A stretch of DNA of 64,000 nt from the NCBI GenBank assembly GCA_018242445.1, contig JAFEBW010000016.1:1-64000 (forward strand), read 5' to 3'. Below are positions 1 through 38,721 of the stretch, one piece after another (within the stretch, counting starts at the first letter, position 1; each line of letters starts with the position of its first letter). This DNA is from Pseudomonadota bacterium (GTDB lineage Bacteria > Pseudomonadota > Gammaproteobacteria > Xanthomonadales > Xanthomonadaceae). The position numbers were made by a program, and so were the translations under genes. Under the pieces are notes generated by a model. That model did not search any database, was not told where the DNA came from, and was given only the letters and a program-made list of their open reading frames with translations.

Positions 1-1950
<1,950 letters not shown>

Positions 1951-1965
1951 GCCATCGCTCCCTGT

Positions 1966-2241
1966 TCAATGCTTGACGCTGGACGGATAGCCGGCGTCTT
2001 CGGTGGCCTTGGTCAGCTTCTGCACGCTGGTCTTGGCATCGTCATAGGTAACGACGGCTTCGCGTTTCTCGAAGCCCACATCGACCATGCTCACGCCCTC
2101 GACCTTTGAGAGCGCCTTCTTGACGGTGATCGGACATGCGGCGCAAGTCATGCCTGGAACTGTCAACGTGACGGTTTGAGTGGCGGCCCATACCGGGGCG
2201 ACGACCGCGGCGAGGGCGAGGGAAGCAAACAGTTTTTTCAT
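1966..2241 (-). CDS. merP: Periplasmic mercury-binding protein MerP
   Basis: A 91-residue Hg(II) scavenger that hands the metal to MerT. It has a signal peptide (cleavage expected after ...APVWA) and one heavy-metal-associated domain with GMTCAAC at about residues 30-36. Length and fold match the family. It begins 12 bp after merT and ends 15 bp before merC, so it belongs to the merTPCA transcript under MerR control. Confidence 0.96.
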   Translation of the reverse strand: MKKLFASLALAAVVAPVWAATQTVTLTVPGMTCAACPITVKKALSKVEGVSMVDVGFEKREAVVTYDDAKTSVQKLTKATEDAGYPSSVKH

Positions 2242-2253
2242 GGTGAACTCCGA

Positions 2254-2604
2254 TCAGTAGAAAAAAGGCAGGACATAGGGAAAGCCGAGCGCGATCAGAA
2301 CCAGCGCGGTCACGATCCAGAAGATGAGCTTGTAGGTCGCGTGCACCTGGGGAATCGCGCAAACCTCGCCCGGTTGACAGGCTTGCGCCGGGCGGTAGAT
2401 GCGCCGCCAAGCGAAGAACAACGCGACCAACGCCGCGCCGAGGAACAGCGGACGGTAGGGTTCCAGCACGGTCAGGTTGCCGATCCATGCCCCGCTGAAT
2501 CCCAAGGCGACCAGCACCAGCGGTCCAAGGCAGCAGGTTGAGGCGAGGATGGCCGCCAGCCCTCCGGCGAAGAGTGCGACGCGCCCGTTTTGTGGTTCAT
2601 TCAT
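2254..2604 (-). CDS. merT: Mercuric transport protein MerT
   Basis: Inner-membrane Hg(II) importer of 116 residues. It has three hydrophobic segments, the first carrying the CC pair (STCCLGP), and a cytoplasmic loop with CxPGxxC (CQPGEVC). The frame extends upstream, but ATG 2604 was chosen because it gives the family N-terminus (MNEPQNGR) and leaves the mer promoter in the intergenic gap. First gene of the operon, divergent from merR. Confidence 0.96.
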
Positions 2605-2639
2605 GCGCTTGTCCTTTCGAATTTGGATCGGATAGCGCA

Positions 2640-2670
2640 ACCTTACTTCCGTACTCATGTACGGAGTCAA
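2640..2670 (-). promoter_or_regulatory. MerR-controlled mer promoter and operator
   Basis: On the minus strand, -35 TTGACT (2665-2670) and -10 TAAGGT (2640-2645) are separated by 19 bp (2646-2664), the overlong spacer typical of MerR-activated promoters. Inside lies a perfect dyad TCCGTAC-N4-GTACGGA (2648-2654 and 2659-2665). This is the canonical Tn21/Tn501-type operator. It sits between merT and merR and should control both. Confidence 0.96.
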
Positions 2671-2675
2671 GCGCT

Positions 2676-3080
2676 ATGGCAAACAATTTGGAGAACCTGA
2701 CTATTGGCCTTTTCGCCGAAGCCGCCGGAGTCAACGTGGAGACGATCCGCTTCTATCAGCGCAAGGGCTTGCTTCCGCAACCGAACAAGCCTTATGGCAG
2801 CATTCGCCGCTATGGCGGTGCGGACGTGGTTCGGGTGAAATTCGTGAAGTCGGCCCAGCGGCTGGGCTTCAGCCTGGATGAAATCGCCGAGTTGTTGTTG
2901 CTCGACGATGGCATGCACTGCGCGGAGGCCAGCAGCCTGGCCGAGCACAAGCTCCAAGACGTGCGCGAGAAAATCGCGGACTTGGCACGCATGGAGGGCG
3001 TACTGTCTGACCTCGTGCGTGCCTGCCATGCACGAAAAGGGAACGTTTCGTGCCCGCTGATTGCGTCGCTGCAGGACTGA
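2676..3080 (+). CDS. merR: Mercury-responsive regulator MerR
   Basis: A 134-residue MerR-family activator/repressor. The N-terminal winged helix-turn-helix includes the [13 protein letters not shown] signature (about residues 23-35), followed by a dimerisation helix. The three Hg-binding cysteines are present, one in MHCAEA (about residue 82) and two in [14 protein letters not shown] 2676 was chosen because it immediately follows the operator. Divergent from merT and convergent with cusA, 34 bp away. Confidence 0.96.
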
Positions 3081-8855: not shown

Positions 8856-9236
8856 CTAGATCAGCAGGCTGCAGTAGCGCAGTCGCGGCGGCGGATCCGA
8901 TCGGTCGATCGGAATCGCGGTTTGGGCGGCAACGTGGGTGATCACCGGAAGCGTGGGCGCCGCGATCGTGATCGATGGCAGCATCGCCGGCGGTACAGTC
9001 AATGAACCATGGCTCGCGGTGGTCGACAGGTCTGGTGCGCAGTGCTTGGCGCACAGTGCCGGATTGCTCTTGTCGACCTGCATGCCCATCGCAGCGCACG
9101 GCGAGGACATTACGGCCAAGTCCGCGGGCTTGGTCTCCATCGCGCAGACATAGGCCGCCATCGCCAGCTGCTGGAACAGCAGGCATACGATCACCGTCAG
9201 GGCGATGCGCAGACGGTGGCGGGCGCGCAGGTGCAT
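8856..9236 (-). CDS. Small secreted Cys/Met protein upstream of cusCBA
   Basis: A 126-residue protein not assigned to a named family. An N-terminal signal peptide (about residues 10-28, ending near QQLAMAA) is followed by YVCAM, PCAAMGM and CAKHCAP, a Cys/Met/His pattern suited to periplasmic copper or silver. The rest is proline- and alanine-rich with a Cys near the end (RYCSLLI). It lies 67 bp upstream of cusC on the same strand, so it probably shares the metal-responsive transcript. Function as a metal chaperone or sensor is inference. Confidence 0.7.
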   Translation of the reverse strand: MHLRARHRLRIALTVIVCLLFQQLAMAAYVCAMETKPADLAVMSSPCAAMGMQVDKSNPALCAKHCAPDLSTTASHGSLTVPPAMLPSITIAAPTLPVITHVAAQTAIPIDRSDPPPRLRYCSLLI

Positions 9237-9283
9237 GGGACTATCCTACGCCCAAACAGGCGGCAGAAGGACGCAGGCCCGAT

Positions 9284-10360
9284 ATGCTCCCGCAAACGCG
9301 TTATGCGCGAAGTGGAAACGTCCACATTGCCTATCAGGTCGTGGGCGATGCGGCCACCGATCTGGTGTTCGCGCACGGCTGGATGTCGCATGCCGAGGCG
9401 CAGTGGTCGTTCCCGGAGATCGCATCGTTTCTGCGCGCGTTGGCGAGCTTCAGTCGCGTGATCGTCTTCGACAAGCGCGGCTGCGGCATGTCCGATCGTG
9501 CGGGCAAGGGTGCGACGATGGTCGAGCGCATGGACGACCTGCGCGCCGTGATGGATGCGGCAGGCTCGGAGCGCGCGGTGATTTTCGGCGTATCCGAAGC
9601 GGCCGCGCTGGCGATGCTGTTCGCGGCCACGAACCCCGATCGCACGGCGGCGCTGATCAGTTATGGCGGCTATGCCCGCCGCATCTGGTCGGCGGATTAC
9701 CCATGGGCGCCGACCGTTGCGCAACGTCAGCAATACCTCGAGATGGTGCGGCGCGATTGGGGTGGGCCCATGGATCTGTCCTCGTTCGCGCCATCGCGCG
9801 CACACGATAAAGATTTCGTCGAACGCTTTGCCGCCTACCTTCGGCAGAGTGCCAGTCCCGGCACGGCGGTCAATCTGGCCCGGTTGAACACCTACGTCGA
9901 CGTACGCGAGTTCCTGCCAAAGATCCGTGTGCCAACACTCGTCCTGCATCGTGTGCACGACACGGATCCGCAGGTGGAAGAAGCGCGTTACATCGCTCGG
10001 CACATTCCCGGCGCGACGTTGAGCGTGCTGCCAGGCCGCGATCACTGGCCGTTCGTCGGCGATCCGCGCCGCCTGATCCGGGCGATGAAGACCTTCGTGC
10101 GCGCCTTGCCGATTGCGCGTTCGGCAAAGCGACCGCGTCGAGCGCGAAAGACCCGATTGGCGGAGCGCATCAAGCTGACCCCTCGGCAACGCGATATTCT
10201 CGAACTGATGGCGCAAGGGCGTTCGAACCGCGAAATCGCCACGCTACTCGCGCGCAGCGAGCACACCGTGCATCGTCACGTCGCGAACATCCTCGCGGTG
10301 CTCGGCGTCAGCTCACGTGCGGCGGCCGTCGCAAAACTCTCCCAAGACGATTCGCTGTAG
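9284..10360 (+). CDS. Alpha/beta hydrolase fused to LuxR-type HTH
   Basis: A 358-residue two-domain protein. Residues about 10-270 form an alpha/beta-hydrolase fold (HG near FAHGWMSHAEAQW, nucleophile region GVSEAAALAML, terminal His in GRDHWPF). Residues about 290-355 are a LuxR/GerE HTH (LTPRQRDILELMAQGRSNREIA). A Ser sits in the elbow (GVSEA). Similar hydrolase folds joined to adenylate cyclase or LuxR domains are known and are thought to sense ligands. ATG 9284 starts close to the fold; the open frame extends much further upstream but crosses the divergent gene. Ligand and targets are unknown. Confidence 0.8.
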   Translation: MLPQTRYARSGNVHIAYQVVGDAATDLVFAHGWMSHAEAQWSFPEIASFLRALASFSRVIVFDKRGCGMSDRAGKGATMVERMDDLRAVMDAAGSERAVIFGVSEAAALAMLFAATNPDRTAALISYGGYARRIWSADYPWAPTVAQRQQYLEMVRRDWGGPMDLSSFAPSRAHDKDFVERFAAYLRQSASPGTAVNLARLNTYVDVREFLPKIRVPTLVLHRVHDTDPQVEEARYIARHIPGATLSVLPGRDHWPFVGDPRRLIRAMKTFVRALPIARSAKRPRRARKTRLAERIKLTPRQRDILELMAQGRSNREIATLLARSEHTVHRHVANILAVLGVSSRAAAVAKLSQDDSL

Positions 10361-10555: not shown

Positions 10556-11290
10556 ATGAAACGCCTTCTTTTCCTGATCTATGGCGTCGTCTGCTACGCC
10601 TTGTTCTTCGTGACCTTTCTTTACGCGATCGGCTTCGTCGGCAATTTCTACGTGCCGTTGAGCATGGATCACGGCAATGCACCCACGAGCCTGACCGAAG
10701 CGCTGATCGTCGACGCGCTGCTGCTGGGCGTGTTCGCGATCCAGCACAGCGTGATGGCGCGCCAGGGATTCAAGCGCGCGTGGACGAAGATCGTTCCCCG
10801 GGAAATCGAACGCAGCACCTACGTGCTTGCCGCAAGTCTTTGCCTTGATCTGCTGTTCTGGCAATGGCGTCCGATCGGCAGCACGGTCTGGAATCTTTCG
10901 GGAACTGCGTTCGCCTCGGTGCTGCTCGGGATCTCGCTGCTCGGCTGGCTCACGGTGTTGCTCAGCACTTTCATGATCAACCATTTCGACCTGTTCGGCC
11001 TGCGCCAGGTGTGGGCGCAATTCCGCGGACAGCCGCTACAGCCGCTCGTGTTCGGTGAGCCAGGCCTGTACAAACTCGTGCGCCATCCGATCTATCTGGG
11101 CTTCATCGTCGCGTTCTGGGCGACGCCGCTGATGTCGGTTGGACACCTGGTGTTCGCCTTCGCGACCACGGCCTACATGGTGATTGCGATCCAGTTCGAG
11201 GAGCGCGACCTGATCACATTCTACGGGCAGACCTATCGCGACTACCGCGCACGCGTGCGGATGCTGCTGCCGTTACCGCGCAATCGCTGA
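10556..11290 (+). CDS. mddA: Methanethiol S-methyltransferase-like membrane protein (MddA/NnrU type)
   Basis: A 244-residue membrane protein with about five hydrophobic helices. It carries the isoprenylcysteine-methyltransferase-like C-terminal signature ([14 protein letters not shown], then FEERDL and YRDYRARV). The N-terminus ([18 protein letters not shown]) and length match MddA, which methylates methanethiol to dimethyl sulfide using SAM. A 195-bp gap separates it from the upstream regulator gene. Inside a metal-resistance region, S-methylation of other thiols is conceivable, but that is speculation. Confidence 0.75.
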
Positions 11291-11384: not shown

Positions 11385-11633
11385 CTATCGATCACCGTGG
11401 GTCGGCACCCCAGCCGTTGAGCAACTGCTACAAGATGCATCTCGCTGGATCGGCGGGCACGGAACGGACCCGAATGAGCAAAACACGCAGCAGTCGCCCG
11501 GATTCGGCTGCAACAGCTTCTTGCACTGCGGGCACTCGTAGAAGTACAGACAGGCGTCCGCCGGCATGGTTTCCAGCGTGGCATTGCCACAGAACGGGCA
11601 CATCAGTACCGATTCGAAAACGATCTCGCTCAT
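11385..11633 (-). CDS. GDCCVxC-domain cysteine-rich protein
   Basis: An 82-residue protein with 11 cysteines. CPFC and CPQC form a likely zinc ribbon (about residues 12-37), followed by the diagnostic GDCCVFCSFGSVPCPP stretch and two further CSSC cysteines. Known as the GDCCVxC (seleno)protein family; this copy uses Cys, with no in-frame TGA. It is 7 bp downstream of merP2 and last in the long leftward cluster, so a cytoplasmic thiol role in metal handling is likely but unproven. Confidence 0.85.
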   Translation of the reverse strand: MSEIVFESVLMCPFCGNATLETMPADACLYFYECPQCKKLLQPNPGDCCVFCSFGSVPCPPIQRDASCSSCSTAGVPTHGDR

Positions 11634-11640
11634 CGTCGAG

Positions 11641-11916
11641 TTACTTGCGGATAGTGGAAGGGTAACCGGCCTCTTTCGTGGCCTTGGTCAGCGCATCGGG
11701 TTGGGTCACCTCGGCGTCGTACATGACTGTCGCGGTTTTTCCTTCGTAGTCCACGCTGACGGAGTTCACGCCGGCAACATGGGTTAGTGCATTCTTGACC
11801 GTGATTGGGCATACCGGACAGGTCATTGTAGGCACTTCGAGGGTAACGATCTTCGGGGTGGCGGCAAGCACCGTCAGTGGCGACAGGGCCAGCAGGGCAA
11901 TCAGCAAATTGCGCAT
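11641..11916 (-). CDS. merP: Second MerP-like periplasmic metal-binding protein
   Basis: A 91-residue exported heavy-metal-associated domain. Signal peptide (about residues 1-19), then TMTCPVC at about residues 30-36 replacing the usual GMTCxxC. It differs from the merP at 1966-2241 in sequence and in its surroundings, since no merR, merC or merA is attached. It is spaced 12 bp after merT2 and 7 bp before the GDCCVxC gene, so the three are almost certainly co-transcribed. It may deliver Hg(II) or another soft metal to MerT2. Confidence 0.9.
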   Translation of the reverse strand: MRNLLIALLALSPLTVLAATPKIVTLEVPTMTCPVCPITVKNALTHVAGVNSVSVDYEGKTATVMYDAEVTQPDALTKATKEAGYPSTIRK

Positions 11917-11928
11917 GGGCTTCTCCTT

Positions 11929-12345
11929 TCAGTAGAACAGCGGGGCGAACCACGGAACGGCTAGCAGAGCCAGCAGCGCGATGGTGACGATCCAGAACAC
12001 CAACCGTTGTCGGCGGCGCGTGCGCGGATCGGCGCAAGGCGTGCCTGGCGCGCAGACTTGCGGAACCAGATACAACCTGCGGAACGCCAATCCGAGAAAT
12101 AGCAGGGTGAGGCCGATGAAGATGGGCCGTACCGGTTCCATCGCGGTCAGGTGGCCGATCCAGCTGCCACCTATGCCGAGCGCGAGCAGCACCAGCGGTC
12201 CGACGCAGCACACCGACGCGCCAATTGCCGACAGCACGCCGGCGATCAGCGAACCCTTGCCGGCGAATCGCACCGTCCGGATCGCACGTCCCAACTGATT
12301 GGATTCACGATTGAGTAGGCTCGAATCATCCACGGTAGCCAGCAA
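11929..12345 (-). CDS. merT: Second MerT-like transporter
   Basis: A 138-residue membrane protein with the MerT arrangement: CC pair in the first helix (ASVCCVGPL), a loop CxPGxxC (CAPGTPC), a third hydrophobic segment and the terminal PLFY. The N-terminus is about 20 residues longer than that of the first MerT, and ATG 12345 lies inside the end of the upstream AhpD-like gene (20-bp overlap). A downstream start is possible, but no other Met precedes helix 1. Function as a soft-metal importer is inferred from family. Confidence 0.9.
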   Translation of the reverse strand: MLATVDDSSLLNRESNQLGRAIRTVRFAGKGSLIAGVLSAIGASVCCVGPLVLLALGIGGSWIGHLTAMEPVRPIFIGLTLLFLGLAFRRLYLVPQVCAPGTPCADPRTRRRQRLVFWIVTIALLALLAVPWFAPLFY

Positions 12346-12889
12346 CCTCCTCCGCGTCGAACGTCACGCCCAAACCCAACGCGACGCGGTTGACGAAATT
12401 GAAATACGCGACGATCAGCGTGATCAGCAGGATGTCGGCATCGTCGAAACCCGCCGTGCGCAGCGCGGCGACGTCCTGCGCCTCCATCCGATCCGGCGAC
12501 CGGGTGAGCTTCACCGCATGCTCGCACAAAGCCCGATCCGCGGCATCGAGCGTGGATGCATCGCAGCCTTGCGCGATCGCATCGAGCAGCTGGGTGTCCG
12601 CGATGTAGCGCGCCAGCGCCTCACGGTGATGGGCAACACAGTAGCCACAAGCATTTTCGCGCGAAACCACGACCGCGAGCAGCTCGCGTTGGCGTCGCGA
12701 CAGCCCGCCGGATGCGAACAGCAGATCCAGATACAGCGTCAGATGCGCCTGCAGCGCGGAAGGCCGCAGGCTGTGTACCTTGAGGATGTTGGCGACCTTG
12801 CCGCGGCTGCGTTCGAGGGCGTCGTAAACGACGCGCAACTTGCCGGTCGCCTCATCTGGTTCTATTTCATGGATGAAACTCATGCGCAT
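12326..12889 (-). CDS. AhpD/carboxymuconolactone decarboxylase-like peroxidase-related protein
   Basis: A 187-residue all-helical protein of the AhpD-like family. The catalytic-type motif is NACGYCVAHH (about residues 79-88), the C-x-x-C...H pattern of alkylhydroperoxidase AhpD. Such proteins reduce peroxides or act as thiol redox partners. It lies between grxC (24 bp upstream) and merT2 (overlapping), so it sits in a thiol/metal operon. ATG 12889 or the Met two codons later may be the start. Confidence 0.85.
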   Translation of the reverse strand: MRMSFIHEIEPDEATGKLRVVYDALERSRGKVANILKVHSLRPSALQAHLTLYLDLLFASGGLSRRQRELLAVVVSRENACGYCVAHHREALARYIADTQLLDAIAQGCDASTLDAADRALCEHAVKLTRSPDRMEAQDVAALRTAGFDDADILLITLIVAYFNFVNRVALGLGVTFDAEEVAGYRG

Positions 12890-12913
12890 CGCTCCGGTTA
12901 CGGCGGTCGGTAC

Positions 12914-13174
12914 TCAGGCAGTGGAGAGCAGCGAATCCAGGAGACCTCGACGATCCAACTCGGCGAGCTCGTCGAACCCGCCGACGTGCACGGATCCGAT
13001 GAAGATCTGCGGCATGCTGCGCCGCCCGCCACTGCGGCGCATCATCTCGTCCCGGTGGCGGGCATCCACGGCGATGTCGATCTTCTCGGGTACGACGCCC
13101 TTGTGTCTGAGCAGATGTTCAGCGCGCAGGCAGAAGGAGCATTTGTCCGAGCCGTAGAGGGTCACTCTGGGCAT
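12914..13174 (-). CDS. grxC: Glutaredoxin (GrxC type)
   Basis: An 86-residue dithiol glutaredoxin. Active site CSFC at about residues 12-15, the cis-proline loop SMPQIFIG, and the GG-E/D motif (GGFDEL). It reduces disulfides and glutathione mixed disulfides. ATG 13174 gives the normal N-terminus MPRVTLYG and overlaps the end of the second AhpD-like gene by 13 bp, suggesting translational coupling. Its place between two AhpD-like genes suggests it may be their reductant. Confidence 0.9.
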   Translation of the reverse strand: MPRVTLYGSDKCSFCLRAEHLLRHKGVVPEKIDIAVDARHRDEMMRRSGGRRSMPQIFIGSVHVGGFDELAELDRRGLLDSLLSTA

Positions 13175-13743
13175 CGCTCGCTCCTGTGCTGCGGTGTCCA
13201 ACGTTCATGCTCAAGAGCCGGATTGAGCGGCGTGTCGAGCAAGTGATTGGCGTAGTTGGACAAGGTCTTCTGGGCGACGCCGAGCACGACCTCCAGCGCC
13301 TGCGCCGGCACATAGCCGGCCTCCAGGAACCGAGTGAAAACCGGATCATCCGCCACCCAACCGCGCTTCTCGACGACGGCCCACGTGAACGCGGCGAGTG
13401 CGGCGAGTCGGGTGTCGGCGGGCTCTTGGTATTCTCTCAGTGCCGCGACCACGTCGGCAGGCGCTCCGACCATGGTCTTGGCGATCATCGAATGCGCGGC
13501 GACGCAGTATCCGCATCCGTTGGCTACGCTGGTCGCCAGCAGCACCACTTGTCGCTCGATCGGAGTCAGACTGCATCGCTCGAAACAGTCCGATACAGTC
13601 AGGTAGCCGTCGAGGGCCGTGGGTGCGTTAGCCAATCCAGCGTACAGATTGGGGACGAAACCGAGCTTGCTCGCGGCTTTCGTCAGCGTCGCGCGAGCGA
13701 CTGCCGGCGCGCTGTCGGGCGTGTGGAATGGAAAGTGGTTCAT
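13162..13743 (-). CDS. Second AhpD-like (carboxymuconolactone decarboxylase family) protein
   Basis: A 193-residue AhpD-fold protein with the thiol motif NGCGYCVAAHS (about residues 74-84) and the expected helical sequence around it. It differs from the copy at 12326-12889 and is not a recent duplicate. ATG 13743 was chosen; ATG 13755 adds four residues. It follows the DoxX gene after 39 bp and overlaps grxC, so the two AhpD proteins flank the glutaredoxin within one run. Substrate unknown. Confidence 0.85.
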   Translation of the reverse strand: MNHFPFHTPDSAPAVARATLTKAASKLGFVPNLYAGLANAPTALDGYLTVSDCFERCSLTPIERQVVLLATSVANGCGYCVAAHSMIAKTMVGAPADVVAALREYQEPADTRLAALAAFTWAVVEKRGWVADDPVFTRFLEAGYVPAQALEVVLGVAQKTLSNYANHLLDTPLNPALEHERWTPQHRSERCPE

Positions 13744-13782
13744 GCGTGTCCTCAAAACGTGGGCGACAAAAGCATTCCTGAA

Positions 13783-14322
13783 TCATTTCGCCGCTTGGGC
13801 CTTCACTGGGTTTCCGACCGAGATGCGATTACGGACATAACGGTTCCAAGCCTGTCGAAGCCCCTCATCCAACGAGAACTTGCCAGGCCCCCAGGCGATC
13901 ACCGCGAGCAACATCAAGGCCCAGCCCTTGTGATCGGCGAAGTCCGAAGTGTTGAACAGACCCGCCCAGAATCCGTTCGGCCACAGATCCGGATAGGAGA
14001 TCACCGCGACCGCGTTGTGCACGAACAGCACCACCGCGGTGATCCGCCCGGCCAGGCCCAGACCGAGCAGCCACGGTGCGATCAGCTCGACCCACATGCC
14101 GAGGAATGCGGCCGTGTCTGGTGGCAACACGGGTACGTGGTAGACCGATACGAACAAATTGTGGGTGCCGAGCGGGTCGTCGAACTTGACCACGCCCGCA
14201 TTCCAGAACGCGATCGCCACCCACAGCCGCATCAGCAACAGCGCGATCGGACCGACCCACGCGGCCAGGCCAGCGGTTCCGGCGTCGTACCAGTCCGCGA
14301 GTCGCTGCAGCCTGATGGTCAT
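13783..14322 (-). CDS. DoxX-family membrane protein of the bufferin cluster (BufD/GigT-like)
   Basis: A 179-residue membrane protein with four hydrophobic helices in the DoxX pattern (WNAGVVKFDDP near helix 1; GMWVELIAPWLLGLGL). DoxX-type proteins are the usual fourth member of DUF2282-MNIO-DUF2063 operons, including the gold-induced gig operon of Cupriavidus. ATG 14322 overlaps the bufC stop by 4 bp (ATGA), so the two are translationally coupled. Its biochemical role in peptide maturation or redox balance is not established. Confidence 0.85.
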   Translation of the reverse strand: MTIRLQRLADWYDAGTAGLAAWVGPIALLLMRLWVAIAFWNAGVVKFDDPLGTHNLFVSVYHVPVLPPDTAAFLGMWVELIAPWLLGLGLAGRITAVVLFVHNAVAVISYPDLWPNGFWAGLFNTSDFADHKGWALMLLAVIAWGPGKFSLDEGLRQAWNRYVRNRISVGNPVKAQAAK

Positions 14323-15110
14323 GTCGTTTTCTCCTGGATGGCGGTGAATTCCGCGATCAATCCATTGTTCGCAAGCCCCGCGATGCACTCGGTCAAATCA
14401 AAGGACGGATCGGTCCGGCGCGCTGCAGCATGCGCGGCCTCCAGCGTCGACCCGTGCGCGAGCGCGTCAATGCAGGCAAAGCTCGCGGCGGCAATCGAAG
14501 TCATCGCGACCTCGCTACCGCTGCGCCACAGCACGACCTGCTCGCCGCCGGTGGGCAGCTGAAGCCGTTCCGACTGCGGCTGCATTGCGTACTGCCAGAT
14601 CGTCAGCACCGGATGCACGCTCGCCAATCCGCGCGTGGACGGATGCAGCGCGATGTGTACATCCACTCCGATCGCGGCGAGCGCGCATTCGATCTCGACC
14701 GCCGTCATCGACCGCGCGTCTGGCGCGAGTGCGGCCTGCTGGCGCGCCCACTCCAGCCGGGCGACATCGCCCAAGTAAGTTAGCCCGTTTGTTTCCGGAA
14801 GCAACTCCAGGAACTCGGCGAAATGCGCGCCGAACGCTTGCAGATTGCCCGATCGCGACGGGTGACACATGCGGTAGCGGTCGGCGCACTGCGCGAAGAA
14901 TCCCTCGCCGACCAGAGCGAGCACCGCCGGGTATGCCGCGCGGAGCGCTTCGGCGTGGATCTGCGCTCCGCTGTTGCGGTAGATGCGCAGGCGCGTGGCA
15001 GGATCGAGGCCGTTGCCCGCGACCGCGGCAGCGGCCTTCGCGCCGTCCTCGTCGTAGACAGCCGCGAGCAAGTCTCGCTGCAGATCAAGCAGCGAGCCGG
15101 CGGTGTGCAT
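14319..15110 (-). CDS. BufC/HvfC-type DUF2063 protein, MNIO partner
   Basis: A 263-residue protein whose N-terminal half is the DUF2063 helical domain (LLDLQRDLLAAVYDE, YRNSGAQIHAEALRAAYPAVLALVG). The C-terminal half is an alpha/beta domain seen in BufC/HvfC partners. These proteins bind the precursor peptide and present it to the MNIO enzyme. The start at ATG 15110 overlaps bufB by 26 bp; an ATG six codons upstream exists. Order bufA-bufB-bufC-doxX is standard. Confidence 0.87.
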   Translation of the reverse strand: MHTAGSLLDLQRDLLAAVYDEDGAKAAAAVAGNGLDPATRLRIYRNSGAQIHAEALRAAYPAVLALVGEGFFAQCADRYRMCHPSRSGNLQAFGAHFAEFLELLPETNGLTYLGDVARLEWARQQAALAPDARSMTAVEIECALAAIGVDVHIALHPSTRGLASVHPVLTIWQYAMQPQSERLQLPTGGEQVVLWRSGSEVAMTSIAAASFACIDALAHGSTLEAAHAAARRTDPSFDLTECIAGLANNGLIAEFTAIQEKTT

Positions 15111-15957
15111 CGAGCACCTCCTCCGCACGCGCTGCTTCGGCCAGCAGCACTTCGAGTTCGGGAATGTCCTGGTCCCATTCGATCAGCGTGGGCACCGATC
15201 CGAACCGCGCGATCGCATCGGCGTACAGATTCCAGACGTCCTCCGCGACCAGACGATCGTGGGTATCGATCAGCAGCGGCACCGGAAGATGTTCTTTGCG
15301 GGTGAACCCTGCAAGGTGGATTTCGCGAACCGCGTCCTTCGGCAGGGCGCGTAGGTAGACATGCGGATCGAAGCCGTGATTGACGCTGTTGACAAAGATG
15401 TTGTTGACGTCGCACAGCAGCCCGCAACCGCTGCGCTGGACGATGGTCGCGACGAAGTCCCATTCGCTGTAGTTGCCGTCGCGAAAGCGCAGGTAACTGG
15501 AGATGTTCTCCACCAGCAGTTCGCGCCCGAGCGCGTCCTGCACTTGTCCGATTCGCGAGACTAGCAGCCGCGCAGCTTCCTCGGTGAACGGCAATGGCAG
15601 CAGGTCGTTGCCGTGGCGGCCGTCCACCGCGCCCCAGCTCAGGTGCTCCGACACCAGCGCTGGCTGGTAGCGATCGACCAGCACCGCCAGGCGTTTCAGG
15701 TGCGCCATGTCCAGGCCATCGGCTGAACCCAGCGACAAGCCGACGCCGTGCAGGCTCAGTGGATAATCCGCACGAATGCGCTCCATCGCGGCGTGGAGGC
15801 CGCCGCCCTCGGCGAACAGGTTCTCGCTGTGCACCTCGAACCACGGCACCCGCGGGCTCTCGCGCAGAACCCGGTCAATATGTGGCGCGCGCAACCCGAT
15901 GCCGGCCGCGGCCGGCATCGGGGGCGCACCCACCACCGGGATCGGAGATTGCCTCAC
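15085..15957 (-). CDS. Multinuclear iron-dependent oxidase (MNIO, DUF692), BufB-like
   Basis: TIM-barrel enzyme of about 290 residues that modifies cysteines of DUF2282 precursors. Visible metal-site motifs include VHSENLF, LHGVGLSLGS, SEHLSW, LVENISSY, CDVNNIFVNSVNHG, EIHLAGF and IEWDQD, covering the His/Glu/Asp/Asn ligands expected for two or three irons. GTG 15957, 11 bp after the bufA stop, was chosen; ATG 15918 is an alternative and would drop 13 residues. Family assignment is firm, the product chemistry is inferred. Confidence 0.9.
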   Translation of the reverse strand: MRQSPIPVVGAPPMPAAAGIGLRAPHIDRVLRESPRVPWFEVHSENLFAEGGGLHAAMERIRADYPLSLHGVGLSLGSADGLDMAHLKRLAVLVDRYQPALVSEHLSWGAVDGRHGNDLLPLPFTEEAARLLVSRIGQVQDALGRELLVENISSYLRFRDGNYSEWDFVATIVQRSGCGLLCDVNNIFVNSVNHGFDPHVYLRALPKDAVREIHLAGFTRKEHLPVPLLIDTHDRLVAEDVWNLYADAIARFGSVPTLIEWDQDIPELEVLLAEAARAEEVLDAHRRLAA

Positions 15958-15967
15958 GACGCCGGCC

Positions 15968-16261
15968 TTACGGCTTCGCGGGCTGCGGCTTGCCGCCGTC
16001 GATCTTTTCGCACAGACCGGAAGGCACCGCCACGAACGCGTTCGGATCGCGCGCAGTCGTGTCCTGGCCCGCGCAGGAGTGACCCGGCGACTTGCAATCG
16101 TTCTTGTGCGCGGCATTGATGCCGTAGCACTTCTGCATGCTGTCCATCTTCGCCTTGTCGGCAGATTGGCCCTGCGGCATGCCGGCCGCGAATACGGCGG
16201 ATGCCGCGCCCAGGGTCAGGGCACAGGCCAGCGAGGCCTTGAGTAATTGCGTGCTGTTCAT
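15968..16261 (-). CDS. Bufferin-type precursor peptide (DUF2282, BufA1-like)
   Basis: A 97-residue exported peptide precursor. Signal peptide (about residues 1-24, ending AVFAA), then a four-cysteine core: KCYGINAAHKNDCKSPGHSC and a final GLCEKI. This is the DUF2282 pattern. Related bufferins are matured by an MNIO enzyme and chelate copper in the periplasm. ATG 16261 has a purine-rich stretch just upstream. First gene of the bufABC-doxX run; the metal bound here (Cu, Hg, Au) is not deducible. Confidence 0.9.
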   Translation of the reverse strand: MNSTQLLKASLACALTLGAASAVFAAGMPQGQSADKAKMDSMQKCYGINAAHKNDCKSPGHSCAGQDTTARDPNAFVAVPSGLCEKIDGGKPQPAKP

Positions 16262-16330
16262 GGGTTCTACCTCCGTGGGAAATGACCGGAATGGTTCCGG
16301 CATGGATAAGAGGCAGCAAGCGGGCAAAAT

Positions 16331-16352
16331 GATTCGCGGCCAATCGCCGTTA
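16331..16352 (-). promoter_or_regulatory. Promoter-like CGCGAATC motif upstream of bufA
   Basis: Reading leftward, the 116-bp gap before bufA holds CGCGAATCATTTT (-10-like CGAATC at 16331-16336). The same CGCGAATC-TTTT motif, with G for A, occurs before the KC-repeat gene at 17,437. A GTAACG box lies only 11 bp further upstream, too close for a normal -35. The shared motif is visible; its role as an ECF-type promoter element is inference. Confidence 0.4.
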
Positions 16353-16377
16353 CCCATCGCGACCGGAGCAATGCAAT

Positions 16378-17076
16378 TCACGTCAGTTGGTTTTGTGGGA
16401 GTTTTCGGTCCAAATCGATCGGGATTTCGGAAAGGACTTCCAGGCTGCGGTCGTCGAGCACCGCCTGCGGCGGGTGACGGCACAAGGCCGCATCTCGCGC
16501 CGCGAGCAGCTCATGAATCTCGTCCCGGCACAGCGCCACCACGCTCTCGATCACGGTATCGATCGGTGGATGGCCGGTCGCGAGGGACAAGTTCGCGAGC
16601 AGCCGCTCGGTTCCATCCGCGCTAAGCATCAGATCGCCGGTGACCCAGCTATTGACCGTGAACAGGCTGGTCGGGACGCCCTTGGCGTCCAGACCGATGC
16701 ACAGCAAATGGCGCGTTCGCGCACGTGTGCGCGTATGGCCGGTCAAGGCCGCGAATTCCCGCTCAGCCTTCGACCGCAGCCGATAGGCCCAGAGTTGGCG
16801 TCGCGCGAACAGATGAATGTGCCCGTGCTCGACCGCGCCCGGCCGGTCCTCGGGCGAATGCGAGTGGTAGAACCACTGAAAGCCACTCTCCGAATCGATC
16901 GCATCGTCGTCCGGGTAATGGCTCCATTGCTGCGGCGCGGTTCCCTTGAGCACCCCGCCGAGCAGGTGCTCGCCATCCTCGGCGAGCACTGCGTAGGTTT
17001 CGAGCAGTCTCCGGCCGGCGGCAGGCAAGTCGTCACGCCGGCGGCCCTGCGGCCGCCGACCGGTGGCTGATTCCAT
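16378..17076 (-). CDS. DUF6969-like protein of the metallopeptide cluster
   Basis: A 232-residue soluble protein with no signal peptide. The middle carries a His/Tyr/Trp-rich run (WSHYPDDDAIDSESGFQWFYHSHSP, shown here in part as HYPDDD and FYHSHSP) and HGHIHLF, resembling DUF6969 from memory. The clustered histidines suggest a metal site. Its ATG overlaps the stop of the KC-repeat peptide gene by one base (TAATG), strong evidence that it serves that peptide. Function unknown; a maturation or binding partner is the best guess. Confidence 0.7.
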   Translation of the reverse strand: MESATGRRPQGRRRDDLPAAGRRLLETYAVLAEDGEHLLGGVLKGTAPQQWSHYPDDDAIDSESGFQWFYHSHSPEDRPGAVEHGHIHLFARRQLWAYRLRSKAEREFAALTGHTRTRARTRHLLCIGLDAKGVPTSLFTVNSWVTGDLMLSADGTERLLANLSLATGHPPIDTVIESVVALCRDEIHELLAARDAALCRHPPQAVLDDRSLEVLSEIPIDLDRKLPQNQLT

Positions 17077-17366
17077 TAATGCTGCGCCGCGCACTTGGCC
17101 CCGCATTTCGCGCCGCATTTGGCCGCGCACTTGCTCGCTCCGTGATGGGCTTTGGCGTGGTGGTGGCGCGGGTGGCACTTGCCGGCGCACTTGGCGCCGC
17201 ACTTCGACGCACATTTTCCAGCGCATTTCGCACCGCACTTGGCCATGGCGGCGGGCTGACACTTGCCTTGGCCGCCGGGCGGGTCGGCCGCGACCGATGC
17301 CAGTGGCAGCGCCAGGGTGGCGGCGGTCAGCGCAGCCAGCGAGGCCAGTTTCAGTTTTGTCTTCAT
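17076..17366 (-). CDS. Exported KC-tetrad repeat peptide (BufA2/metallothionein-like)
   Basis: A 96-residue precursor. Signal peptide (residues 1 to about 27, ending LASVAAD), then about 69 residues with 11 cysteines, mostly in a four-residue period KCGA/KCAG/KCAS. A His-rich HPRHHHAKAHH segment interrupts the repeats. Every cysteine follows a lysine. The pattern recalls low-complexity MNIO substrates (BufA2/HvfA type) or an exported metallothionein. It heads the leftward run and overlaps the DUF6969-like gene. It is a very likely soft-metal binder; modification by the BufB enzyme is inference. Confidence 0.8.
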   Translation of the reverse strand: MKTKLKLASLAALTAATLALPLASVAADPPGGQGKCQPAAMAKCGAKCAGKCASKCGAKCAGKCHPRHHHAKAHHGASKCAAKCGAKCGAKCAAQH

Positions 17367-17436
17367 CGGGTTTCTCCGTCGGGTGGTGGTTGGAGGCAGG
17401 GGCCTCGACGCATGAGAGGGGCAATGCAACCAAAAC

Positions 17437-17478
17437 GATTCGCGCGCTATGAAAAAAAGTTTCCGGGGCGCGCGAATC
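17437..17478. promoter_or_regulatory. Divergent promoter region with 10-bp inverted repeat
   Basis: A perfect inverted repeat, GATTCGCGCG (17437-17446) and CGCGCGAATC (17469-17478), encloses 22 bp containing an A tract. Leftward, GGAAAC (complement of 17459-17464) and CGAATC (complement of 17437-17442) are 16 bp apart, a good ECF-type promoter facing the KC-repeat gene. Rightward, CGAATC at 17473-17478 could serve the DUF2892-sigma genes, but its -35 is poor. Confidence 0.5.
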
Positions 17479-17550
17479 CATTTAGTGCGATGCCGCCTCT
17501 TGGTAGGCGAGGGACTTCCTCGACCACAGGCCAACCAAGGAGACAACCAC

Positions 17551-17760
17551 ATGTTTTACGTGAAGAATGTTCCGAACTGGGAACGCGGCCTGCGCATCCT
17601 GATGGGCGCGGCGGGACTGGGCTACGCCGGCATGAACTGGGGCGTCTCCAATCTCGCCGTGGGCATCGGCGCGATGGGCGCCATACTCGCCATGAGCGGC
17701 TTGATGGGCTGGTGCCCGATGTGTGCGATGGTTGGCCGCAAGCTCGACAAGGGGCATTGA
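17551..17760 (+). CDS. DUF2892 (YgaP transmembrane-like) small membrane protein
   Basis: A 69-residue protein of the DUF2892 family. The N-terminus MFYVKNVPNWERGLRI is followed by two hydrophobic helices and a CPMC motif (WCPMCAMVG) near the end, a pattern often seen beside metal and sulfur genes. ATG 17551 has AAGGAG about 10 nt upstream. It ends one base before the sigma-factor GTG start, so they are co-transcribed. The CPMC pair could sense metal or redox state; that is inference. Confidence 0.85.
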   Translation: MFYVKNVPNWERGLRILMGAAGLGYAGMNWGVSNLAVGIGAMGAILAMSGLMGWCPMCAMVGRKLDKGH

Positions 17761-17761
17761 A

Positions 17762-18286
17762 GTGAACACCGCGATCGACCGGATCGACCTGATCCACGCC
17801 GCCCAGACCGGCGATCCGATCGCGGTGGAGCGGTTGCTGGTCGTCTGCCAGGCCGATGCGCGTCGTTACGCCTTCAAGCATTGCCATGCCAGCGACATTG
17901 ACGACGCCGTGCAGGAATCGCTGCTGGTGATCTCGCGCAAGGTCAAGGGCCTCAAGGCCGCGGCGGCGTTTTCGTCATGGCTGTTCACCGTGATCCGGCG
18001 CGAGTGCCGCCGGCTCGAACGCATGATGTTCCGTCACGAGCCGCTGGAGGACGATCTGGTCGAACAGCAGCTGGCCTGCCGGACCGACGAAGCGCTGCGC
18101 GTGGATCTGGCGAAGGCGCTCGAATCGTTGCCCGCGCACTACCTCGAGGTCGTGCTACTGCGCGATTTCGAGGAACTCACCATCGCCGAGATCGCCGAGC
18201 GCCTGGGCGAGCAGATTCCCGCCGTCAAAAGCCGCCTGCATCGCGCGCGCGAGCTGGTTCGCGAATACCTGCAAGAGAAAGTTTGA
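17762..18286 (+). CDS. ECF-family RNA polymerase sigma factor
   Basis: A 174-residue sigma factor with region 2 (DIDDAVQESLLVISRKV ... SSWLFTVIRREC) and region 4 (LPAHYLEVVLLRDFEELTIAEIAERLG). GTG 17762 directly follows the DUF2892 stop; an ATG at 17723 in the same frame overlaps that gene and is less likely. No anti-sigma gene is next to it. In Caulobacter an ECF factor controls bufferin operons, so this one probably drives the divergent KC-repeat and buf genes. Confidence 0.88.
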   Translation: MNTAIDRIDLIHAAQTGDPIAVERLLVVCQADARRYAFKHCHASDIDDAVQESLLVISRKVKGLKAAAAFSSWLFTVIRRECRRLERMMFRHEPLEDDLVEQQLACRTDEALRVDLAKALESLPAHYLEVVLLRDFEELTIAEIAERLGEQIPAVKSRLHRARELVREYLQEKV

Positions 18287-19281: not shown

Positions 19282-20340
19282 CTAAGATCCGAGACCAGCA
19301 AGGCGCGCCATTGATTCGGCCGGATCCCATTTGGCGAATAGCGCCTCCAAGGCGGTGAGCCGCGCATTTCCGGCCACTGTTTTTTTTTCCGCGTCCGCCC
19401 TGGCTTGGCGCTCCAGGTGCAATTCGTCCCGCAGCTTGGCCGCTGCACTCCGGGCGTCCTGTAGCGCTTGGAGATCTTGTGACCAACGCGCCCTGAGCAC
19501 TTGCAGTTCGTCGCGAACCGGCGTCAGCGCGTCCAATTCGTCCTTGCGCTGGCGCCCGACGTCGACCGCCGCCTGAAGTTCTTTTTTCAGATTTCCGACC
19601 TGTTCGGTCAACCGCGCCGCCTCACCGTTGAGCTGCACCAGTTCGTGATTCTTGCCGGTCACCGCCTCCTGGGCTGCGCGCAATTCAACCTGCAGGCCCT
19701 GCACCTGGTGCTCGTGCCGGCGATGCTCCTGATCACGCTGTTCCTTGGCCGCGGTCCGAAAGTGTTCCAGCGCCTCGCGTGCCTGCTCGTGTTTCTGCTC
19801 GATCGAGGCGGCGTGGGCTTCCTGCTCGGCCACCCGTGCAATGAGCCCTGCCACGCGCTCTTCGAGTTGTGAGGCCGCGACCCGTGCATCCTGCAGGCTC
19901 GCCAGCGTCGTCGCATGCGCGTCGCGCTCGCCGGCCAACGTGACCTCGGTGCGTTGCAGTTGACCGCTCAGTGCGGCGTTTTCGCGCGTCTGTTGATCGA
20001 GCGCGTCGGTGCGCTCCTTCAATCGGGCTTCGAACCCTGTCTTGGCCTCGGTGATCTGCGCATCGGCTTCGGTATGCAGCCGTTCGGCGAGTCGGCCGAC
20101 CAGGTCCTGCAAGGCGTCACTGATCGCGACCTTGGCGCCGGTGCCGGCACCGTCTTCGTCCTCCAGTTCCTTGAGGTAGCGGTGGATCGTGGTCTTGGAT
20201 CCGGTATTTCCCAAGGCCACACGCACCGCGTCCACCGAAGGCCGCTTGCCCTGGGCGAGAAGGCTCGCTCGTGCCTTCTGGACATCGCTTTTGTACAAGC
20301 CGCCGCGTGCCAAGGACCTTCTCCTACGATTACGTAACAT
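19282..20340 (-). CDS. KfrA/TnpT-like DNA-binding coiled-coil protein
   Basis: A 352-residue protein. The N-terminal KfrA-type DNA-binding region (SDVQKARASLLAQGKRPSV ... KTTIHRYLKELED, about residues 17-60) is followed by roughly 250 residues of Gln/Glu/Ala/Arg-rich coiled coil and a short conserved tail WDPAE. ATG 20340 was chosen because it precedes the DNA-binding region and faces the AT-rich intergenic site. Divergent from the tyrosine recombinase, the arrangement of TnpT and TnpS in Tn4651, where TnpT assists cointegrate resolution. Confidence 0.8.
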   Translation of the reverse strand: MLRNRRRRSLARGGLYKSDVQKARASLLAQGKRPSVDAVRVALGNTGSKTTIHRYLKELEDEDGAGTGAKVAISDALQDLVGRLAERLHTEADAQITEAKTGFEARLKERTDALDQQTRENAALSGQLQRTEVTLAGERDAHATTLASLQDARVAASQLEERVAGLIARVAEQEAHAASIEQKHEQAREALEHFRTAAKEQRDQEHRRHEHQVQGLQVELRAAQEAVTGKNHELVQLNGEAARLTEQVGNLKKELQAAVDVGRQRKDELDALTPVRDELQVLRARWSQDLQALQDARSAAAKLRDELHLERQARADAEKKTVAGNARLTALEALFAKWDPAESMARLAGLGS

Positions 20341-20364
20341 ATTACATACCATGTATTTACGTAA
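20330..20364. promoter_or_regulatory. Paired TTACGTAA palindromes, candidate KfrA/TnpT operator
   Basis: Two identical TTACGTAA palindromes (20330-20337 and 20357-20364), centres 27 bp apart, flank a TACAT-ACC-ATGTA dyad (20343-20355) in a markedly AT-rich stretch overlapping the start of the KfrA-like gene. KfrA-type proteins bind their own promoter, so this is a likely autoregulatory operator or a helper-protein arm of the resolution site. Confidence 0.55.
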
Positions 20365-20406
20365 TATACAACATGAACTCGGTTCCGGCCTTGCACGTAA
20401 ACCTAT

Positions 20407-20433
20407 GGCGTGATAATAGTGCGATATCACGCC
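20407..20433. other. Candidate recombination core site (rst-like)
   Basis: A perfect 9-bp inverted repeat, GGCGTGATA (20407-20415) and TATCACGCC (20425-20433), with a 9-bp asymmetric centre, lies 22 bp before the tyrosine recombinase start. Inverted arms around a short asymmetric spacer is the layout of tyrosine-recombinase core sites, including the rst site between tnpS and tnpT of Tn4651. An operator for the recombinase gene is the alternative. Confidence 0.5.
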
Positions 20434-20455
20434 TAGACTGCTGGAAGAGAAACCG

Positions 20456-21814
20456 ATGGCGACACCGACCGTACATTCCCGCCCGCGCATCGACGCCAGC
20501 CCAGAACTGTTGGTGTCATCAATCCCGCCGGCGGAAGGTTCGATGCGCACCTTGGACGAGTACCTCGAGGCCGCGGCCCGAGAGAACACGCGCCGCAGCT
20601 ATGCGAATGCCGTGCGACATTTCGAGGATGCCGGCGGATTGCTGCCCGCAACCGGGGAGGCGGTGGCCCGCTACCTGGCTCAGCAGGGCGGCGTACTGTC
20701 GAACAACACGTTGCGCCAGCGTGTGGCCGCGCTGGGCCGTTGGCATGCCGACCACGGGTTTGTCGATCCCACGCGCGATGCTTTGGTGCGTCAGACGCTC
20801 AAGGGCATCCGCGCCGTCCACGGCACGAAGGAGAAGCAGGCCGCGCCGTTGCTGCTCCAGCAGATCGAGCAGGTGGTCGATTCCCTGTGCGAACGGGCCG
20901 CCGCCGCCCAGGCATGCGGCGACGCCGGCGCGCAGCGTCGCCTCGCGCGCGATCGCGCGCTGTTGTTGCTCGGCTTCTGGCGCGCCTTCCGCGGCGACGA
21001 GCTGGTCCGGCTCGAGGCGCAACACGTCAAGCTCGCTCCCGGCGAGGGCATGGAGCTGCACTTGCCTCGCACCAAGGCTGACCGCCAGAACACCGGCACC
21101 ACCTGGAAGGTGCCGGCACTTTCGCGCCTGTGTCCGGTCGAGGCCATGCAGGCCTGGCTGCACGTGTCGGGAGTGAGCAGCGGACCGGTCTTTCGGCAGG
21201 TCGGTCGCTGGGGTGACATCGGTAGGCGCGGCTTGCACCCAAACAGCATTCCGAAGCTGCTGCGCTCAATCCTTGCCGCTGGCGGACTTGCCGAGACGAA
21301 ACAGTTCAGCGGCCATTCGCTGCGGCGCGGCCTGGCCGGATGGGCCCACGCCAACGGCTGGGACGTGAAGAACCTCATGGCGTACGTTGGTTGGCGCGAT
21401 CTGCGCTCGGCGATGCGCTACATCGACGTCGATCCGTTTGCGCGCGAGCGGCTGGAAGCCGGGCTCGCTTCCGCCGCCCCGATTGTGGTGCGCCCGACGT
21501 TCGGCCCCAATGCGCCACCGCCGCGGCGCGCGCTTGAGCTGCGGCTGTTGCTGTCCCCCTTTGTGGGTAAGGCAGGTCTGAAAGGCGCGCGTCGCCACAT
21601 TGAGGAAATCTGCCTGGCTCGCCACGGCGGCCGACCGCTCGGGGAGGATGGAACCCGCTACGCGCTCTGGCTCGACGAGGGCGATATCGAAGGCACGGGA
21701 TTCGAGGAAAGGATCGCCGAGTTACTCGACGAGTTGCACCGGATTGCCGACAACCACAGCTGCTACCTCGAAGCAACGCTGTCGGACCCGCAATCGCGTG
21801 AACGATGGGATTGA
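20456..21814 (+). CDS. Tyrosine recombinase, TnpS-like cointegrate resolvase
   Basis: A 452-residue site-specific recombinase. A SAM-like N-terminal domain (about residues 25-105, with NTRRSYANAVRHF) precedes the catalytic domain with Arg in FWRAFRGDEL, HSLRRG, a second GW segment and the Tyr in RSAMRYID. About 100 residues of arginine-rich extension follow the catalytic domain. Position upstream of tnpA and divergent from a KfrA-like gene matches TnpS of Tn4651/Tn5041-type elements. Resolution of cointegrates is the inferred role. Confidence 0.85.
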   Translation: MATPTVHSRPRIDASPELLVSSIPPAEGSMRTLDEYLEAAARENTRRSYANAVRHFEDAGGLLPATGEAVARYLAQQGGVLSNNTLRQRVAALGRWHADHGFVDPTRDALVRQTLKGIRAVHGTKEKQAAPLLLQQIEQVVDSLCERAAAAQACGDAGAQRRLARDRALLLLGFWRAFRGDELVRLEAQHVKLAPGEGMELHLPRTKADRQNTGTTWKVPALSRLCPVEAMQAWLHVSGVSSGPVFRQVGRWGDIGRRGLHPNSIPKLLRSILAAGGLAETKQFSGHSLRRGLAGWAHANGWDVKNLMAYVGWRDLRSAMRYIDVDPFARERLEAGLASAAPIVVRPTFGPNAPPPRRALELRLLLSPFVGKAGLKGARRHIEEICLARHGGRPLGEDGTRYALWLDEGDIEGTGFEERIAELLDELHRIADNHSCYLEATLSDPQSRERWD

Positions 21815-38632: not shown

Positions 38633-38721
38633 CGGCGCATCCTCCCGCGCCCTTCGAGAACACCACGGCAACGGGCGAAGGAATCCCGCGTTCGGCTGGC
38701 CGGCCTAGCCGTGGTGAGGGC

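Follow-up and report, generated by a model that had tools for sequence, protein, structure and literature searches.

A leftward bufferin gene run joined to a cysteine-repeat peptide/DUF6969 pair and mercury transport genes in a member of the Xanthomonadaceae

The bufferin operon known as Buf1 or gig consists of DUF2282, MNIO, DUF2063 and DoxX genes in this order, together with an extracytoplasmic function (ECF) sigma factor (PMC12452194; PMC3511200; PMC5413113). An initial annotation of the locus described here held that known operons contain only these four genes, which is too strict, since sigma and anti-sigma genes as well as MerC|bufferin fusion proteins have been published for bufferin clusters, and the survey that notes these fusions suggests a role with other metals (PMC12452194). 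In captophorins and oxazolins, precursors with EGKCG or AKCGA repeats occur with MNIO (PMC13097082). A module of MerT, MerP and GDCCVxC is also already known from plasmid pRA2, where it lies beside a Tn3-family transposase. Here we describe a run of twelve leftward genes (17366-11385, - strand) on contig JAFEBW010000016.1 of a gammaproteobacterium of the Xanthomonadaceae (assembly GCA_018242445.1); the window is the whole stretch analysed, positions 1 to 64,000 of this contig. The run is probably an ECF-sigma-controlled operon of four modules for defence against, or buffering of, thiophilic metals and metalloids, combining a bufferin, a second cysteine-repeat peptide with its partner DUF6969, and the MerT-MerP-GDCCVxC module within a mer/cus/arsenical island.

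Eleven of the twelve proteins exceed curated Pfam or NCBIfam cut-offs. The exception is the first, a peptide of 96 aa (KC peptide, 17076-17366) with a Sec-type signal followed by AKCGAKCAGKC repeats, for which no Pfam or NCBIfam family was found at E 0.01. Its reading frame overlaps by 1 nt (TAATG) that of a DUF6969 protein with a histidine-rich conserved core (16378-17076; PF22308, 2.2e-56, 191 bits over residues 19-220 against a gathering score of 27). After the largest gap of the run, 116 bp, comes the bufferin precursor BufA, a DUF2282 protein of 97 aa with a Sec-type signal and four cysteines (15968-16261; PF10048, 4.8e-20). Its gene stands directly before that of a maturase-type MNIO, BufB, 10 bp further on (15085-15957; PF05114, 1e-105; NF050167, 379 bits, equivalog cut-off 310), which overlaps the gene of its DUF2063 partner BufC (14319-15110; PF09836, 5.2e-19); this in turn overlaps that of a DoxX membrane protein (13783-14322; PF07681, 4.9e-14). 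At a distance of 39 bp follows an AhpD-like protein, CMD1 (13162-13743; PF02627, 3.5e-10), whose CGYCVAAH is a CxxCxxxH motif, and, overlapping with it, a dithiol glutaredoxin with CSFC (Grx, 12914-13173; TIGR02181, 102.8 bits, cut-off 90). A second AhpD-like protein, CMD2 (12326-12889; PF02627; TIGR01926, 149.8 bits, cut-off 81.8; CGYCVAHH, again CxxCxxxH), begins after 24 bp and overlaps a MerT-type transporter (11929-12345; PF02411, 6.9e-37), behind which lie, 12 and 7 bp apart, the periplasmic mercury-binding protein MerP (11641-11916; TIGR02052, 103 bits, cut-off 92.6) and a small cysteine protein of the GDCCVxC type (11385-11633; NF041374, 6.8e-28). MerT, MerP and GDCCVxC are thus adjacent on one strand in the order of the pRA2 module, and the window MerT is 72% identical to that of pRA2. 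All reading frames have the identity, place and strand given by the initial annotation, which counted eleven genes instead of twelve; its account of the spacing, with overlaps or gaps below 40 bp and a single exception before the DUF2282 gene, also holds.

The run is flanked by a divergent ECF sigma factor gene (17723-18286, + strand, start at 17723 or 17762; TIGR02937, 9e-20; PF08281), from which it is separated by a gene for a small YgaP-type membrane protein, divergent from KC (17551-17760, + strand; PF11127, 2.9e-13). In L005, a locus of another genome, the YgaP-type gene stays beside the sigma gene, and the sigma factors of the two loci are 84% identical. When the upstream sequences of KC and bufA were aligned between the window and L005, one ECF-type motif, CGAATCRTTTTG-N13-TCT, emerged in front of either gene in each of the two genomes; in the window the sites, both on the - strand and both with an exact match in L005, are CGAATCGTTTTG-N13-TCT before KC (17415-17442) and CGAATCATTTTG-N13-TCT before bufA (16309-16336). 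In a genome-wide pattern search, the relaxed form GAATCnTTT-N14-CTCT had 3, 6, 4 and 3 matches in four whole genomes, 16 in total, while the reversed motif, used as control, had none in the same search; a fifth genome, G245, the other one of the genus, had no match to the relaxed form. The genes behind the 16 sites are bufA (five), KC-DUF6969 (four), an ECF sigma factor (two), a TVP38-FAD reductase (two), CMD1 (one, before its relative in L012) and two envelope-lipid genes, of patatin type and PagL-like (one each). The motif also precedes bufA in most Rhodanobacter-like MNIO loci. Such a distribution is that of a regulon under a single dedicated sigma factor, and from its position and the sites before sigma genes in relatives we infer that the divergent ECF sigma factor reads this motif. 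Because the same motif stands before KC and bufA and all 16 sites lie at related genes, the run seems to be served by two promoters that belong to a single regulon. No such motif was found before the AhpD-Grx-MerTP genes, and sigma-70 promoters and terminators within the run did not rise above shuffled sequences. With the gap of only 39 bp between DoxX and CMD1, the genes look co-regulated, in agreement with the single transcription unit of the initial annotation. Three further sites were set aside: one before the YgaP gene (17473-17500, + strand), whose three mismatches put it at chance level, and two-mismatch matches at C3:584 and C23:81903, behind neither of which a related gene was seen.

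The DUF6969 family is sparse, being found in 6 of 250 genomes of the order, 30 of 369 of the class and 20 of 398 of the phylum, samples that all include the genome of the window. Sec-type cysteine-rich open reading frames encoded on the strand of DUF6969 and no more than 1.5 kb away were picked out by an automatic filter in 20 of 39 loci, against an expectation of about 0.04 per locus from the background of the same stretches (9 per 308 kb, both strands). With inspection of the remaining upstream regions, a cysteine-repeat peptide was seen at about 35 of the 39 loci, four of them weak, and in a second, phylum-wide sample inspection gave 12 of 19, one weak; near the DUF6969 gene of Azospirillum (L181) no cysteine-repeat peptide was seen. 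The pairing is common, not universal, and it is new in the present analysis. The repeats are of the types KCGAK (the group of the window, Pseudogulbenkiania and Burkholderia glumae), NPCAAK, GGNPCAPS, a membrane-anchored DHTRH...SPCGL, and GCC or CAAC. Only one of the 56 loci collected through DUF6969 (L139) has an MNIO nearby, many of these stretches being short. KC and DUF6969 thus appear to be an independent pair, found mostly without MNIO, and not bufferin accessories, which corrects the extended bufferin cluster of the initial annotation.

Alignment of 37 DUF6969 proteins shows YHxH, EHGHxHxF, one G and NxWV to be fully or almost fully invariant; the protein of B. glumae has ENGHFH. These conserved histidines suggest metal binding. 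Since DUF6969 carries no signal peptide, we propose that it would act before export, by analogy with the MNIO-DUF2063 pair. It is possible, and we suggest it tentatively, that DUF6969 represents a new kind of metal-dependent protein that works without MNIO and matures or metallates exported cysteine-repeat peptides of a broad class. Peptide metal buffers of the KCGAK, NPCAAK, SPCGL, GGNPCAPS and GCC types would then be made by a second pathway, which in this locus a single ECF sigma factor would wire to the bufferin route. DUF6969 has no sequence relative in the PDB. A known fold was sought with a structure model built on six sequences only (pLDDT 75.6), which gave no convincing match (Foldseek best E 0.9, VIA-align Z 4.2), and a distant relationship with DUF2063 or MNIO was discarded at hhalign probabilities of 0.4 and 0.2%. 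No DUF6969 on a viral contig was confirmed, and no paper on DUF6969, the string NPCAAKNPC or GDCCVxC was found in the literature collection searched.

Several DUF6969 loci have features of their own. c-type cytochromes resembling SoxA and TsdA, encoded beside DUF6969 in L136, L137, L145, L186, L188 and L191, bear at one or both ends tails of NPCAAK repeats, the same as those of the small peptides adjoining DUF6969. Many DUF6969 genes adjoin YeeE/YedE sulfur transporter genes (L103, L104, L151-L163, L180, L193, L200), and the peptides at these loci are membrane-anchored, with repeats of the SPCGL/SPCSL type or of PCAAG/PCAAK; a role involving sulfur or persulfide is possible. On the B. glumae plasmid pWSGX3 (L174, 3276-6714), genes for an ECF sigma factor, zf-HC2, an MFS transporter, a KC peptide and DUF6969 stand together.

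To assess conservation of the gene order, the window proteins were set against 80 MNIO loci of GTDB genomes; all twelve genes in exactly this arrangement were found only in the window. L005 carries sigma factor, YgaP, KC, DUF6969, DUF2282, MNIO, DUF2063, DoxX, CMD2, MerT, MerP and GDCCVxC in the same order, with identities of 59-91% for every shared gene, and a TVP38-reductase gene comes after its run. A second locus of that genome, L012, has the shuffled order buf, CMD2, KC, DUF6969, CMD1, so that CMD2 is retained in both, and in L011 and L017 KC-DUF6969 lies upstream of buf. The linkage appears to be old enough for all of its genes to have diverged, and its complete form is rare. Bufferin genes also join mercury resistance genes elsewhere. 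On plasmid NZ_CP088981 of Rhodanobacter denitrificans FW104-R5 (L173), bufABC lies inside a mer operon, in the order merR (divergent), hypothetical gene, (2Fe-2S) protein, DUF2282, MNIO, DUF2063, merT, merP, merC, merA, merD, merE. The same joining is found in FW104-R8 (L021), and L023 holds its beginning. Bufferin genes inside mer operons, together with MerT and MerP in the run, suggest mercury as one target.

The run sits in a mercury, copper and arsenic resistance island. Leftward it is adjoined by cusCBA-like genes (8788-3115) and a complete-looking mer operon (1-3080), which comprises merR, merT, merP, merC and a merA truncated at the contig end. An exact 125-bp overlap inside merA is shared by the start of the window contig (C7), contig C5 at either end and C19 at its end; therefore, C5 very probably connects, in one orientation or the other, the window with a second mer operon on C19 and would lie between the two mer operons. 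C5 carries an arsenosugar-type cluster of a TVP38-FAD reductase, a protein like TIGR04282 and a radical SAM protein with DUF3641 that resembles ArsS, the last two assigned by resemblance plus PF12345/PF04055 and not by a dedicated model. The third motif site of this genome precedes the reductase gene, and all three would seem to belong to a single mer/cus/arsenical island. On contig C63 the genome has another bufferin operon, a plain one, whose sigma factor is divergent. The initial annotation mentioned neither this operon nor the divergent YgaP and sigma genes, the mer operon and cusCBA. Other genes around the run include one for MddA, a methanethiol S-methyltransferase (10556-11290, + strand; 347.6 bits, cut-off 270), convergent with the cluster, and an open reading frame in which an alpha/beta hydrolase domain is joined to a LuxR-type DNA-binding domain (8975-10360, + strand). 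To the right, an int-alpA RNA match (38650-38715, - strand), and within 19282-21814 a KfrA-type protein and an open reading frame resembling a tyrosine recombinase by eye, are hints of integrated elements.

The operon could work as follows. Under thiophilic metal stress, the divergent sigma factor would read the two near-identical promoters and turn on both peptide buffers together, the first promoter serving KC-DUF6969 and the second bufABC-doxX and all genes behind. In the cytoplasm, BufB with BufC would turn cysteines of the DUF2282 precursor into thiooxazole-type ligands, and DUF6969, dedicated to the KC peptide, would hold, metallate or modify the cysteines of this peptide before Sec export. 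Once in the periplasm, both peptides would bind and buffer soft metals. Hg(II) may be taken inwards by MerP and MerT and handed to MerA, which the genome encodes in its two mer operons, and the glutaredoxin and AhpD-like proteins may tend thiols and glutathione adducts, with DoxX also serving thiol protection. The scheme builds on observed gene content, order and conservation, the promoter motif in common, the repeated joining of buf with mer genes and the pairing of DUF6969 with peptides; the modification chemistry, the metal, the signal and the roles of the glutaredoxin, AhpD-like, DoxX and GDCCVxC proteins in it are inferred. Several observations weigh against it. Of the merR-controlled merT, merP and merA by which a mer operon is recognized, the run holds only MerT and MerP, without MerR or MerA; published work demonstrates bufferin function for copper alone; MerT is rare near MNIO, being no more than 5 kb away in at least 2 of the 250 genomes of the order (this genome and G105); a glutaredoxin gene was found in no other MNIO locus; and CMD1, like Grx, is absent from L005. 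The core of the initial interpretation, one co-regulated thiol and metal unit, is strengthened by the motif and by the linkage, which recurs in L005 and partially in L012, L021, L023 and L173; the glutaredoxin gene and exact order were found only in the window. The novelty moves from the gene list to the DUF6969/cysteine-repeat pair and the sigma regulon tying it to bufferins.

Other explanations can be given for the same genes. The KC peptide may be a second MNIO substrate of the Lys-Cys captophorin type, matured by BufB-BufC of the same operon, with DUF6969 as a minor helper or incidental. AKCGA is common among putative precursor repeats in MNIO clusters, a substrate with AKCGA was modified once in vitro by FonBC (PMC13097082), and a single MNIO can have tandem precursors (PMC12452194). 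However, the near absence of MNIO from loci of cysteine-repeat/DUF6969 pairs, KC-DUF6969 among them, including the stretch examined of the B. glumae plasmid, makes this unlikely. The B. glumae pair is part of a cluster annotated for arsenosugar biosynthesis, alongside an ECF sigma factor and a TVP38 reductase, and together with the C5 cluster it makes arsenic a serious candidate. The operon may then answer mainly arsenic, or arsenic and sulfur stress, the sigma regulon coupling cysteine peptides to an arsenosugar-type pathway with MerT-MerP as passenger. The motif before the TVP38-FAD reductase gene of C5 and a weak match of CMD2 to the arsenosugar-associated model TIGR04169 are in favor of this idea. 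On the other hand, the buf genes within mer operons and MerT-MerP in the run point to mercury, bufferins are copper chelators and cusCBA adjoins the run, and the ArsS and TIGR04282 assignments on C5 are made by resemblance, so that a mainly arsenical operon seems doubtful. Of the copper, mercury or gold proposed by the initial annotation, mercury gains support from the mer operons, and arsenic must join the candidates.

The run could also be a fortuitous assembly of resistance modules that share a mobile island but are independent of one another and form no functional unit. MerT-MerP-GDCCVxC is indeed a transposon-borne module, modules also occur separately or in shuffled order as in L012, and the full order is rare. 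However, L005 keeps the order while all its genes have diverged, the genes overlap or are separated by tiny gaps behind a shared dedicated promoter motif, and buf and mer are joined again in L173 and L021; a mere accumulation is thus quite improbable.

Under the favored reading of one sigma-controlled operon, bufferins, so far known from their action on copper, become tied to operons with mercury transport genes, and the sharp promoter motif makes the regulon testable. For DUF6969, a family without a described role, its place beside exported cysteine-repeat peptides is a first functional handle, and the pair opens the way to a possible undescribed peptide modification or metallation system across Pseudomonadota.

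Compared with Buf1, the run has all four core genes in canonical order, a Sec-type four-cysteine precursor, a BufB above the equivalog cut-off and an adjoining ECF sigma factor. It differs in the addition of KC-DUF6969 upstream and of AhpD-like, Grx, AhpD-like, MerT, MerP and GDCCVxC downstream, and no NrsF-type gene was seen next to the sigma gene. Its motif GAATCnTTT-N14-CTCT also differs in sequence from the sigma-F motif of Caulobacter, GTAACC-N16-CGAA (PMC3511200), so that identity of the two was rejected. With captophorins, the KC peptide shares AKCGA-type Lys-Cys repeats and a Sec-type signal. An MNIO gene lies two genes on, but the KC peptide is paired with DUF6969, and related pairs mostly lack MNIO. 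The pRA2 module (MerR-MerT-MerP-GDCCVxC) shares its last three genes and their order with the window, where they lack MerR and transposase and are placed behind the AhpD-like genes of a bufferin operon. Finally, bufABC and merT-merP, directly joined on NZ_CP088981, are both present in the run. The plasmid operon is MerR-controlled in its arrangement and has merC, merA, merD and merE, whereas the window run has an ECF promoter, keeps DoxX and contains no reductase.

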